Assembly (NCBI RefSeq): GCF_009795805.1
Contig: NZ_WTEY01000004.1
Span: forward strand, 1-64,000
Length of the DNA stretch: 64,000 nt
Direction of reading: 5' to 3'
Origin: Gilliamella sp. Pra-s52
GTDB lineage: Bacteria > Pseudomonadota > Gammaproteobacteria > Enterobacterales > Orbaceae
Translations under genes and position numbers: made by a program
The notes under the pieces: generated by a model
Seen by the model: only the letters and a program-made list of their open reading frames with translations
Told to the model about the DNA's origin: nothing
Databases searched by the model: none
Shown here: positions 44,702 to 51,964 of the stretch, piece after piece
Layout of the letters: every line of letters begins with the position of its first letter
Numbering within the stretch: the stretch's first letter is position 1

Positions 44702-46873
44702 ATGGAGTTTTATTGGTTAATTAAACTTTTTTTGATAGGTCTTGCTTTATTTTCTTGGATTAACTATAGGTCAGAAAGGAATCAAAATAAACAAAATTTA
44801 AATGATATTATTAATGAGCGCACTTCAATAAGAAAATTAACTGAAGATGAATTTCAGCTTCTAAAACCTTATTTGGATAATAAATGGTTGGTGTTTCCTT
44901 ATAAATATCAATCTTCTCTAATTGATTTAGACGTATCAGCGTTAGCAGGGAATTGTGTCCGACATAGTTTATACACTAATTCTGAAGAAACATCTTTTTA
45001 TTATGAGATTGGCGGCATTGAACTCTTTTTTCCTTATAATATGTACCATCATATTTCAGACTTTAACGAGGTAGAAGTTGTTTTTACCGAAAGATACGCA
45101 TTTGTTGTTAAAGTCAATGGTTATGATATAAAAACTGCTGCAGAGTCTCAAAATGGGGGCATATACTCAGAACTCGATGAACCTTGGCTACACGAACAAT
45201 CTTTTGATCTTGAAACTTTAGAAGATAAGCAACTAAGTAGTGACAAAGCAGCGAAAATAAAATCAGAAACTGATAACAAAATTAGCTATGTTGAATTGTT
45301 AGAGCGAGAAGAAACACCATTAGAATCAAAAAATAGAAACCCAAAAACGAATGGCATATTATCAGCGTTTTTTTTGGTATCAATGACAGTATCTTTCCTG
45401 ATGTATTGGTATTTGAATAATTCTGCCATTCTTTTTTTAGTCATTTTTAGTTTTATTCTTTTTATTCTATTTTATTGGTATCAGCCAAAGTCTAAATACG
45501 ATTTACACAAAGTAAAATGTATTAAAGGCTTAATTATCTCTAAACAAACTGATACCAAAAAAGTAACTGTTGATAAAAATTATATTTTAAACGTTCCACC
45601 TTATTGGTTGCCGTTCCTTCCTGATAAATCATCTATGCCAGCTAGCATGGATGTAACAGTAGATGATAAAAACTTAATTCGTTATGAAAACACGCTTTCA
45701 ATTAACCACGAAATTGAACAATTTGGACCCCCAAAATTTGTTAAGCGCAATTTAATCCTCTTTATTACAGGCGTTGTTTTATCTGCTATTGTCTATTTTC
45801 AAACAAGTATTGTTGATAATGCGTTATTGGCTTATCGGGCTTTTAATGGAAGTATAACATCTTGGAATCTAGAAGATGAATCAAGCTTAAAAAACAGCCT
45901 AATTAAAAAAGGTGATTTGGTTAACATAAAAATGAGTGGTGTATCATGTGATGTCAATGAAAAGAGTAATAAAGAAGGATGTCATACATTATTTATTAAC
46001 AATCAACCTATTGAAAATAATCGTGTAGCATCAATGGCGGATCTAATGAAAAGCTTATTTGATAATAATTTTATTAATACTTATATCGATCGTGATGTTA
46101 TGAGAGTTCAGCAATATCAAGAAAGAATAAATGAACTATATAAACAATATGATAGGCGAGCATCAATTTATAACATCAAAAATATTTATACAAAACTAAA
46201 AAGTATAGGAAAAATTGTGACTACTTTAGATAAAGCTTGCAACGTTTTTGAATTGGATTGTCAGAACGTTAAAAAAGAATTATCTATATTTTATGATAGT
46301 TCTAATTGGCAAGAAATGGTTAAAAGTGCTGAAGAGCGTCCAAATTATGATGAGGTGGTTGATAACAAATTTGTATCTAGGCTTGATAGCTCAATTTCAA
46401 CATTAAAGAAAGATATATTAGTAAAAGTAAAAGATACAGTTTCAAATTATCAGCATCAAAAACCAAGCTTAAAAATTGATTTATCTAATTATAGCTACAA
46501 AGACATAAGCACTCTAGAAAATGTAAATAATGACAACCTTACACAAGATTCATTATTAGAATTAAAGTTAAATCATTATTATGATGTTCTATTGGCCAAA
46601 GCAGGAACAATTAATATCGTTGGATTAGTTAACGATATTTATTATCAAGATGATAATACAATATCAGGATTAAATGTGGATGCAAACTATTGCTACCGTA
46701 TGAATTTAAATGATCTATTTTCGTTAACATCGCCAGTTTTAATAAGCCTTGTTATTTTTATTGTTACCTGCTTAACATCATTTTTTAATGGCATAAAACT
46801 TTGTTATAAATTAATTACCAATCGTCGACGACAAACAGAAATCATTAAATTTTATAAAAATAGAATGATCTAA
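44702..46873 (+). CDS. igaA: IgaA/UmoB-family inner-membrane protein, copy 1
   Basis: IgaA (YrfF, UmoB) restrains the Rcs envelope-stress phosphorelay in enterobacteria. This 723-residue protein (E. coli IgaA 711) shows the same plan: one N-terminal helix (residues 5-20), a cytosolic domain, two helices near 217-258, a second cytosolic domain with PPYWLPFLPDKSS, then LSINHEIEQFGPPKF, a helix near 349-367, a large periplasmic domain and a last helix near 676-695 followed by RRQTEIIKFYKNRM. The four periplasmic cysteines of IgaA have counterparts in VSCDVNEKSNKEGC and ACNVFELDC. Assignment rests on these patterns, as overall identity is low. Orthology to E. coli igaA is unproven because a paralogue follows. 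Confidence 0.8.
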   Translation: MEFYWLIKLFLIGLALFSWINYRSERNQNKQNLNDIINERTSIRKLTEDEFQLLKPYLDNKWLVFPYKYQSSLIDLDVSALAGNCVRHSLYTNSEETSFYYEIGGIELFFPYNMYHHISDFNEVEVVFTERYAFVVKVNGYDIKTAAESQNGGIYSELDEPWLHEQSFDLETLEDKQLSSDKAAKIKSETDNKISYVELLEREETPLESKNRNPKTNGILSAFFLVSMTVSFLMYWYLNNSAILFLVIFSFILFILFYWYQPKSKYDLHKVKCIKGLIISKQTDTKKVTVDKNYILNVPPYWLPFLPDKSSMPASMDVTVDDKNLIRYENTLSINHEIEQFGPPKFVKRNLILFITGVVLSAIVYFQTSIVDNALLAYRAFNGSITSWNLEDESSLKNSLIKKGDLVNIKMSGVSCDVNEKSNKEGCHTLFINNQPIENNRVASMADLMKSLFDNNFINTYIDRDVMRVQQYQERINELYKQYDRRASIYNIKNIYTKLKSIGKIVTTLDKACNVFELDCQNVKKELSIFYDSSNWQEMVKSAEERPNYDEVVDNKFVSRLDSSISTLKKDILVKVKDTVSNYQHQKPSLKIDLSNYSYKDISTLENVNNDNLTQDSLLELKLNHYYDVLLAKAGTINIVGLVNDIYYQDDNTISGLNVDANYCYRMNLNDLFSLTSPVLISLVIFIVTCLTSFFNGIKLCYKLITNRRRQTEIIKFYKNRMI

Positions 46874-46991
46874 TATATGATATAACCTATTGTTATGTAG
46901 AAATTAAATGTAATTGTATTTAATTTTTGCATTTTTAAACATAAAAAACAAAAATAATAACTGCACTAGAATAAAAAGGAAAACGCAAAAA

Positions 46992-49571
46992 ATGGATACA
47001 ATTTCTACTTTAAAAATCATTTTACTCCTAATTACGTTACTTAGTTGCTTAATTGGACTAGGTAAATGGTCTGATTTTAAATCAGAACGTAAGCAAAACA
47101 AAAGAAATCTAGAAGAGTTTATTAATAACCGCCAAACAACAAGACGATTAACAGCAGAAGAGCTTGAGCTTATAACGCCTTATCTTAACAATAAAAAGTT
47201 AGTTAAACCTTATAAATTACGATCGTCATTAGTGGACTCTGAGGTATCCATTATTGAGGGGGCTTGTATTCGTCACAGTTTTTATACCAATTCAGAAGAA
47301 ACCGATTTTTATTATGAGATAGATGGTATTGAAGCGCTATTTCCTTATAATTTACAGCTATTTTCTTTAAGCCACAATGTTGCGGAAGTGGTTTTTACCT
47401 CGAATTATGCAATTGTGATTAGTTTTAATGGCTATAGTTTAGACACGTTAGCGGATTTTGGTGCTACACCTAATAAAAAAAATAGCCTATATAGTTTATC
47501 GCCTTCATCTTCCGAGTTAACTCGGCCAATAAAAGAAGAAGAACTGCAACTACTTGAACCTTATCTTAATAACCCAACCATGGTCGGACATTATGAGCAT
47601 AGTTCCACGTTAGTTAGTTCTGATGTGTCAATTATTGTTGGTTCATGTATTGCTATTAATCATTCTAATAATAGTAATGATCCTATCTATACTTATCAAA
47701 TTGGTGATATTGTTGTCTTTTTCCCTTATGACATGGAACGATATGTTGAAGATATTAACATCGTGCAAGTTGTCGTTACTGAACACTATGCATTAGTAGT
47801 CAAAATCAATCAATATGACTTAAAAACAGCAAAACAAAAACAACTGCAGCAACAACGGCAAAAGCAACAAAATAAAAAAACTTATTTTGAACCCGCTTGG
47901 AAAAGCAAAAAAGAAGAAATTTTACCAGAACAAAACCTAACCGATACCAATGACAGCATAATTAGAATTGATAAAAAAGATATTGAATTAAAACCTAAAG
48001 TTAGTTATGAAATAGTTGAACAACGTCAAGAAACACCGATAGAATCTTCAAACAGAAGCAAAAAAAACAATGGCATATTTGCCGCTGTTTTTTTAGCTTT
48101 AACGGTTATAATCTATATTAAATATTGGTACACTTTTGACTCATGGTTACCGCTATTTATTGCGCTGAGCTTGATTGTATCTATTTTCTTTTACCTGCGT
48201 AAGGCACAACCTTATACCTTAGACGTTAGCCGTATAAAAACAAAAATTCGCTATAAAGACGATATAAAAAACAGAATAATTGTTAGCGATGATCTAACTT
48301 TAACATATCCCGCTTATTGGGCTCCTTTTTTACCTTGTAAACTCAATGAAGATGTCGATATCGATGCCATTGTAAACAAAGAAAAACTCCTTCGTTATGG
48401 TAATTTATTATCCATCAGCCGTGAAATTGAAGAATTTGGCCCACCCAAATTTATAATGCGCAATTTAATTCTATTTGTTACGGCATTTCTTTTGTCTATT
48501 ATGATTTTCAAAATGGTGGATATCACCGATAATTTGCAATTGGCTAATTATCCTTTTGATAGCAATGTTTCCATTTGGAACATTAAAGATGCTGAATCTT
48601 TAAAAAACAGTCCAATCAAAAAAGGCGATTTTATTAATCTCAAACTCAACGGCGCATCATGTAATGCAGAAAGCAACCTGTATTTAGAACATTGCGATAA
48701 AGTGTTTATCAACCAACAAGTTACAAATAACGGTGAAGAAACCATATTTGATAATGATTTAATAAATGCATTATACAACGATGACTTAATTGAAACTGTA
48801 CGAGATGATTCAGTCAAACAACTTGAAAAAAAAATAAACGCCGAACGAAATAAAAAACATCAATATTATTCACAAATTGAACCATTAACCAAACTATTAC
48901 ATATTGACCGCTTAATTTTAACCATTGATGAAAGTTGTCAATTATTTGAAGAGGATAAATGTAGTCGAATTAAACAGACTTTAATCAATACCATAAAACC
49001 TATCGACAGTCCAATTGAACAGTGGTCTGAGCTAGTTGAATACAGCAAAAAAAATACAAATCACGAAGAAATTATCTTTAATAGCACGCTAGAACCACTA
49101 GAACAACAAATCAAAAATTTGAAAAAAAGCGTGACATTTTATTACCTAAACAAATCAAACATATCCCTAACTAATTACCAACAATCACCACAAAGTGTTG
49201 GTTTAAAACTTACAAATGCACAAGAGATAAAAATTACTCAGCTAGATGGCGAAGATACAGGCTTATTACAAATATATAAAAATGCGTTATTAGGAAAGGG
49301 CGGGAGGGTCAAAACTTCAGGCTTAGTGACACAGGTTGATTATCAAAATGACAACACCGTTTCAAATCTAACAATTAACGATGACCTGTTATATCGCATC
49401 TATCAACAGCGGCTATTATCTTTCACTTCGCCTATATTTATTGGTGTCGCTATTTTTATTATTACTGTTTTAACGGCATTGTCTAATGGCATAATAATTT
49501 GCTACAAACTTATTGCAAATAATAAACGAAAAGACAATATCATCAAAGCATATGAAAATAGAATAAAATAA
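46992..49571 (+). CDS. IgaA/UmoB-family inner-membrane protein, copy 2, with a duplicated N-terminal domain
   Basis: 859 residues, clearly a paralogue of the preceding gene: SERKQNKRNLEEFINNRQTT, RHSFYTNSEET, YPAYWAPFLPC, RNLILFVT and NGIIICYKLIANNKRKDNII all have close equivalents there. The N-terminal cytosolic domain occurs twice, at about residues 40-150 (LITPYLNNKKLVKPYKLRSS) and 180-290 (LLEPYLNNPTMVGHYEHSST), which explains the extra length. A Gln/Lys-rich linker follows near 295. Helices lie near 7-23, 360-397, 491-508 and 811-830. The cysteine pairs (ASCN...EHC, ESCQ...DKC) are kept. Start at 46992 by its AAGG site. A gap of 118 bases separates it from copy 1. Confidence 0.8.
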   Translation: MDTISTLKIILLLITLLSCLIGLGKWSDFKSERKQNKRNLEEFINNRQTTRRLTAEELELITPYLNNKKLVKPYKLRSSLVDSEVSIIEGACIRHSFYTNSEETDFYYEIDGIEALFPYNLQLFSLSHNVAEVVFTSNYAIVISFNGYSLDTLADFGATPNKKNSLYSLSPSSSELTRPIKEEELQLLEPYLNNPTMVGHYEHSSTLVSSDVSIIVGSCIAINHSNNSNDPIYTYQIGDIVVFFPYDMERYVEDINIVQVVVTEHYALVVKINQYDLKTAKQKQLQQQRQKQQNKKTYFEPAWKSKKEEILPEQNLTDTNDSIIRIDKKDIELKPKVSYEIVEQRQETPIESSNRSKKNNGIFAAVFLALTVIIYIKYWYTFDSWLPLFIALSLIVSIFFYLRKAQPYTLDVSRIKTKIRYKDDIKNRIIVSDDLTLTYPAYWAPFLPCKLNEDVDIDAIVNKEKLLRYGNLLSISREIEEFGPPKFIMRNLILFVTAFLLSIMIFKMVDITDNLQLANYPFDSNVSIWNIKDAESLKNSPIKKGDFINLKLNGASCNAESNLYLEHCDKVFINQQVTNNGEETIFDNDLINALYNDDLIETVRDDSVKQLEKKINAERNKKHQYYSQIEPLTKLLHIDRLILTIDESCQLFEEDKCSRIKQTLINTIKPIDSPIEQWSELVEYSKKNTNHEEIIFNSTLEPLEQQIKNLKKSVTFYYLNKSNISLTNYQQSPQSVGLKLTNAQEIKITQLDGEDTGLLQIYKNALLGKGGRVKTSGLVTQVDYQNDNTVSNLTINDDLLYRIYQQRLLSFTSPIFIGVAIFIITVLTALSNGIIICYKLIANNKRKDNIIKAYENRIK

Positions 49572-49683
49572 TTACTCCATTTAATGGATTTACAGCCAAA
49601 TCAATGGCTTTATCAAAAATAATAAATCAATATAAATAAAATTGATTTAGACTATATAACGTGATAAAGCCATTATTTTACCC

Positions 49684-49730
49684 AAAAAGTGGTCAGGAAA
49701 GGTGTTGATTTTATTTAAGTTTTTGTTTGG
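49684..49730 (+). repeat. Dispersed intergenic repeat, copy 5
   Basis: An A5 run, GTG, then GTCAGGAAAGGTGTTGATTT and TATTTAAGTTTTTGTTT. Confidence 0.7.
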
Positions 49731-49837
49731 CTGTTTTCAAGCAAAATCAACTGTCTGCATAACTAACGTTGAACGCCGACAACTAACAAATTCACAAAAA
49801 CAATAAAAACATGCTCCAGATAACAGTATTTAATCGC

Positions 49838-49885
49838 AAAAAAAGGTCAGAAAAAGTACTGATTTTATTAAATTTATTTTCTATC
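49838..49885 (+). repeat. Dispersed intergenic repeat, copy 6
   Basis: An A7 run, G, then GTCAGAAAAAGTACTGATTT and TATTAAATTTATTTTC. Faces the decayed copy 7. Confidence 0.6.
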
Positions 49886-49926
49886 CGTTTTTTGAATATA
49901 AAACTCTACCAACCCCTTTTTTTACG

Positions 49927-49957
49927 ATAAATTAAAATTTAATAAAATCAAAACATT
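49927..49957 (-). repeat. Dispersed intergenic repeat, copy 7 (decayed)
   Basis: On the minus strand only the inner part remains (TTTTGATTTTATTAAATTTT); the GTCAG end is lost. It forms an inverted pair with copy 6 about 45 bases away. Confidence 0.4.
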
Positions 49958-50039
49958 AAAAATAGCTTAAAAAAAGGTTTTCAAAGCAAAAATTGTGGTT
50001 TATTTTTATATAGCAAGATTTATCAAATCTTAAGTTCTA

Positions 50040-50127
50040 CTTTAACGCCGTGTAGGCGGTTTAGAAAGGTTTCACACCATCACCTCCACCGACGCCCTCC
50101 CTTAACAACGTGAACGTGGTTACTGTC
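50040..50127 (+). CRISPR. One-spacer CRISPR remnant of type I-F appearance
   Basis: The 28-base unit at 50040-50067 matches the type I-F repeat consensus at 21 of 28 positions. It has the palindromic core GCCGTGTAGGC and the 3' end TTTAGAAA, with a T-A to C-G change in the stem that keeps pairing. It is followed by a GC-rich stretch of exactly 32 bases (50068-50099), the usual I-F spacer length. Then comes a degraded second unit (50100-50127) that agrees with the first at 16 of its first 22 positions and loses its 3' end, as terminal repeats do. The DNA before it is AT-rich, like a leader. No cas genes are in the window. Consensus recalled from memory. Confidence 0.5.
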
Positions 50128-50203
50128 GCCCATTTTATCCACCAAAGCAAAAAATACCCTATAATCAGCCCAATTAAAACATCCGTTAAAATTAATTATT
50201 CAA

Positions 50204-50232
50204 TTGTTAGGCAAGACAGATTCTGTTATACT
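50204..50232 (+). promoter_or_regulatory. Probable sigma-70 promoter of pyrG
   Basis: TTGTTA at 50204-50209 and TATACT at 50227-50232 are spaced 17 bases, close to the ideal. Transcription would start near 50239 in a TTTTCCCG context, leaving a leader of about 88 bases before pyrG. Confidence 0.65.
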
Positions 50233-50305
50233 ATTTTCCCGTCTGATTCATCATATATTGCATTGGTTTTTATCATTTAGCCATAGTGCAATATTGTTCT
50301 ATTAA

Positions 50306-51964
<1,659 letters not shown>

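Follow-up and report, generated by a model that had tools for sequence, protein, structure and literature searches.

In type I-F CRISPR systems the PAM is CC, and in other type I systems a leader with one repeat is enough for spacer uptake. Among the small repeat units described so far, type I-F Racrs (solitary-repeat RNA anti-CRISPRs) act through a solitary repeat RNA that ties up Cas proteins, and have been described from phages and plasmids (PMC10651486). CreR mini-CRISPRs are listed in a review for types I-B, I-E and V-A only (PMC13131331).

Here we analysed a 64,000 nt stretch of the chromosome of the bee-gut bacterium Gilliamella sp. Pra-s52 (the window, on contig C44 of the 2.49 Mb genome), in which the region upstream of pyrG, with an igaA-like gene on the other side, holds a type I-F CRISPR relic. 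An earlier note, made from the letters alone, had seen an orphan one-spacer array here. With a probability of roughly 0.87, we explain the locus as a decayed member of a dispersed, cas-less type I-F array family in Gilliamella.

Anatomy of the locus upstream of pyrG

All array-related features described below are on the forward strand. The distal upstream part of the dispersed element (49666-49899) was recognised by blastn matches, covering query bases 95-308, to further array loci in this genome and in sister genomes. It contains a GGTCAGGAAAGG...TTGATTTTATT-like box twice in direct orientation, at 49683 and at 49837. It is followed by the leader (49900-50039), which is 81-92% identical, repeat included, to the best-matching loci. 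A leader of about 140-160 bp is common to all dispersed arrays, and the alignment of 18 leaders places the window copy among them with its outline complete. It is the most diverged copy in this genome, with 13 departures in 120 conserved columns vs 2-10 in the others. Directly upstream of the array and pyrG stand two tandem igaA-family genes (44702-46873 and 46914-49571).

The first repeat, R1 (50040-50067; CTTTAACGCCGTGTAGGCGGTTTAGAAA), is where the earlier note had put it and matches the consensus of the dispersed arrays, CYTTAACGCCGTRTAGGYGGTTTAGAAA, at 28 of 28 positions. Like a type I-F repeat it is 28 nt long with a stem-loop, and its hairpin is retained as judged by folding against shuffles. 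The Rfam model CRISPR-DR4 matches exactly these bases (model positions 1-28), under its gathering score (22 bits, E 0.058). When up to three mismatches were allowed, the genome had 41 matches to CYTTAACGCCGTRTAGGYGGTTTAGAAA, those of the cas-adjacent array among them, and the reversed control gave none; chance is excluded for R1. The compensated stem change that had been pointed out is real: U7-A19 has become C7-G19, so that the stem reads ATGCC/GGCAG in the cas-adjacent array and ACGCC/GGCGG in the dispersed arrays. Further, the blast matches of many relatives stop at window base 50067 (query base 496), the last base of R1, as expected where variable spacers come after leader and repeat.

The gap between R1 and the second unit is exactly 32 bases, as had been claimed, and forms a GC-rich putative single spacer, S1 (50068-50099). 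The proposed search for its origin gave no match in phages, in viral contigs (exact 23-base core) or in genus genomes. Against phages only weak partial matches appeared, the best with E 0.7, to phages of unrelated hosts. A leuC/aconitase-type gene of two relatives, sharing a 23-base stretch, was rejected as target, as it has two mismatches and covers part of the spacer only.

The second unit stood up only in part. Its first 12 bases (50100-50111) fit the repeat at 10 of 12 positions at exactly +60 (about 4e-5 per window position, 1.3e-4 in local shuffles), and chance is an unlikely source of this fragment. From 50112 onwards the sequence is instead that of a sister-array tail: 50112-50148 (GGACGTGGTCACTGTAGCTATTTTATCCACC...) is homologous to the tail found 3' of sister arrays, both by nhmmer with a profile of 21 module copies (E 2.9e-5) and by blastn to the same tail in G009, G023 and G018. 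The 43 bases of 50068-50110 show no module homology on either strand and matched nothing in our searches, so a spacer and a repeat fragment here are putative, being read from the spacing and the 10/12 match. A hairpin arm of the module itself (TTCCCTTAGCTC) also loosely resembles CTCCCTTAAC.

Comparable truncations exist elsewhere in the family. At L039 the last repeat breaks off some 19 bases in, where the element tail takes over, L049 also has a cut-down terminal repeat, and at L037 the last repeat passes straight into the module with no trailer. Given the module tail from 50112 and the like truncations at L039 and L037, no more than the first half of a second repeat can be present. Since the second half of this unit, R2, is module tail (50112-50127), its Csy4 stem is broken, and its folding does not exceed that of shuffles. 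The 28-32-28 layout first proposed hence holds for the repeat and the 32 bases but not for the final 28. Judged from the alignments, the true layout is probably a repeat, 32 bases and a repeat fragment fused to the element tail. There are not two intact repeats around a spacer, R2 being some 12 repeat-like bases plus module tail, and the window copy is an array relic rather than a full array.

Beyond the element lies the native pyrG upstream region (50160-50326), which is conserved in species without the element. Its identity in genus genomes is 77-96%, with alignments starting between 50162 and 50192, and from about 50160 it has AATCAGCxxAATTAAAACATC in common with L013. Upstream of pyrG, conservation with related species reaches to about 50160-50176; beyond that they lack the element, as seen in G009, G028, G020 and G008. 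In the comparison with relatives that had been proposed, the repeat was recovered in sister genomes but not at this site. When the region was scanned for promoters and terminators, no candidate exceeded the shuffles.

The dispersed array family and the cas operon

The genome carries arrays with CYTTAACGCCGTRTAGGYGGTTTAGAAA at C13:295k, C13:424k, C24:41k, C24:163k, C44:86.6k, C61:23.8k and C65:53k, which with the window copy makes eight loci. At each of them the first repeat is preceded by the same AT-rich leader, and spacing within the arrays is 60 nt, rarely 61. All carriers of the repeat among the named genomes searched are Gilliamella (18 stretches). The earlier note had held that its idea would fall if no related repeat occurred in sister genomes; same-repeat arrays with the common leader are present in Gilliamella relatives as well as in this genome, which bears out both the type I-F appearance and the suggestion of a last trace of an array. 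A family member consists of leader, array, AT-rich trailer and usually a GC-rich 3' module, at intergenic sites that vary between species. Our partial literature search found no report of type I-F arrays in Gilliamella.

We compared the spacers of this genome with 35 genus genomes, and searched viral contigs with three short cores, that of S1 and two more. Four dispersed arrays, L035 (C24:163k), L036 (C13:295k), L037 (C44:86.6k) and L039 (C24:41k), yielded six different spacers that match a sister genome or a viral contig perfectly, and CC precedes every match. Most of the target proteins tested belong to phages; recognised were a tail sheath, two baseplate proteins, a major head protein and a phage regulator, with one target unrecognised; a lambda-J-like tail fibre was also recognised, through a match with two mismatches. 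The concatenated spacers of the genome gave no match in the phage-record collection. As sister spacers match phage or sister-genome DNA beside a CC PAM, we conclude that the family has served immunity.

Downstream of sister arrays 27 copies of the GC-rich module were listed, none of the module searches giving a phage match. The 3' module, with the motif GACAAATTTGTCTGGAACAAATTTGAAC, is found at L033:1400-1640 and in 12 other matches in this genome, and also lies inverted upstream of some arrays; a short part of it has an 85% match at four places in two Proteus mirabilis records. G. bombicola (G023) has about ten loci of dispersed cas-less type I-F arrays with one common leader. In L086 (G001 C1:2136500-2141500) four leader copies stand within about 3 kb, 0.8-1 kb apart, which suggests tandem duplication of leader-array units.

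The search for type I-F cas genes, which had been recommended, found one operon, cas1f-cas2/3f-csy1-4, on another contig (C55) than the window, and the array is in this sense an orphan with its Cas proteins encoded elsewhere. The one Csy4 gene found in the genome is at C55:133826, and around it Cas1f, Cas3f, Csy1, Csy2, Csy3 and Csy4 all score well above NCBIfam cut-offs, Cas1f being scored from an internal start. The cas-adjacent array differs from the dispersed ones in both its repeat (CTTCAATGCCGTGTAGGCAGTTTAGAAA) and its leader. The two repeats are unlike at three or more positions, which counts against the presumed use of the one Csy4 by both. In two other species an array behind a homologue of the dispersed leader sits upstream of cas1, immediately next to it in G019 and at a distance of about 3 kb in G006. 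This ties the dispersed leader to a I-F system of the same kind.

The operon on C55 has a small unit of its own. Between cas2/3 and csy1 (L032:4221-4345) two degenerate repeats, the second with a hairpin, surround a guide whose matching site, beside a CC PAM, follows shortly downstream and seems to lie at the csy promoter. Mismatches of this guide cluster at positions 6 and 12, both of which are flipped out in type I crRNA. The unit occurs in this genome and in eleven species (G001, G006, G009, G010, G014, G017-G020, G022 and G023), and its guides vary among species while the local target varies along with the guide. Shuffled guides gave p <= 0.002 in eleven of the twelve genomes and 0.018 in G022; in G003 the guide match was not significant by the same test, and in G011, G016 and G024 we recognised no such unit. 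By its sequence the unit has the layout of a CreR and is apparently regulatory.

Weighing other explanations of the window copy

What is left at the window copy may also be read as one repeat without any spacer, where 50068-50148 would be wholly a leftover of the 3' module or of unrelated DNA, and the likeness to a second repeat would be chance. As a variant of the decayed-array explanation, its probability lies within that given above. It draws on the module tail at 50112-50148 and on L037, where the last repeat likewise enters module sequence directly, but it has to accept the 10/12 match at exactly +60 as accident, and 43 bases without module homology on either strand as filler. We find it rather unlikely, though far from negligible.

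The earlier note had further raised a single-spacer regulatory or self-targeting unit, and a CreR- or CreA-like unit of this sort would use I-F Cas proteins for the repression of a gene, for example pyrG. A single spacer, Cas proteins supplied in trans, a place near the start of pyrG and the CreR-like unit in the cas operon of the same genome are what would be expected of it. It is not supported, as CC with the S1 seed GGTTTNACACC (pattern CCGGTTTNACACC) occurs nowhere in the genome (G000), so that the guide finds no target there, the R2 stem is broken, the leader is that of an ordinary array and the most diverged of its kind, and the same place in relatives is empty; we regard it as very improbable. 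A Racr, in which R1 would be transcribed, cut by Csy4 and sequester Cas proteins, would agree with one intact hairpin-bearing repeat behind a leader. Yet the locus is chromosomal, between an igaA-like gene and pyrG, and so in neither phage nor plasmid, R1 and its leader belong to host arrays with real spacers, and R1 with its 3' flank was found in no viral contig searched. We give this explanation very little credence.

Probable decay of the array and comparison with known systems

For a decayed member of the dispersed family we propose the following course. Intact members carry spacers of phage origin and presumably depend on the one I-F cas operon in trans, where Cas1-Cas2/3 would add spacers at the leader, Csy4 would cut the transcript and the Csy complex would interfere. 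In the window copy only one repeat would have stayed intact, with no more than one spacer after it; next would come, probably, the 5' part of a second repeat joined to the element tail, and we infer that a deletion likely took the trailer with most of the 3' module. If transcribed, R1 may still be cleavable by Csy4. No standard crRNA is expected where a second hairpin is missing, so the copy is most likely inert, or silent, as immune memory.

The window copy keeps its leader and one repeat, hence refilling seems possible in principle. Further, we speculate, tentatively and with considerable doubt, that Gilliamella spreads units of leader, array, trailer and 3' module as a repeat element and thereby keeps many parallel acquisition sites per cas operon, the window copy being a worn, nearly emptied site that accepts spacers. 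If this is true, the site could accept spacers by virtue of the retained leader and intact first repeat. The locus alone is a relic, but it is the tip of an unusual layout in which eight common-leader arrays go with one I-F cas operon, array sites vary between species and spacers have phage matches beside the correct PAM. A copy of this kind would be expected to escape array finders that demand two intact repeats.

Of the known systems, CreR mini-CRISPRs (PMC13131331) resemble the window copy in single-spacer layout, whereas here no promoter target was found, the second hairpin is broken and the place is outside the cas operon. Racrs and solitary repeat units (PMC10651486) share the single intact repeat, but here we have a host chromosomal relic with an array leader, outside phage or plasmid. 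Type I-F (Csy; Rfam CRISPR-DR4) arrays agree in the 28-nt repeat with its GCC/GGC hairpin and 3' TTTAGAAA, the 32-nt spacers, the 60-nt period, the CC PAM (at targets of sister arrays) and cas1f-cas2/3f-csy1-4 in the genome. They differ in that the repeat here is CTTTAACGCC(GTGTA)GGCGG, the arrays are scattered away from cas and the window copy has one intact repeat left. Orphan or degenerate arrays likewise have no cas nearby, few spacers and a degenerate terminal repeat; unlike them, the window copy belongs to a dispersed family whose members share leader and 3' module, at eight loci in this genome and about ten in G. bombicola.
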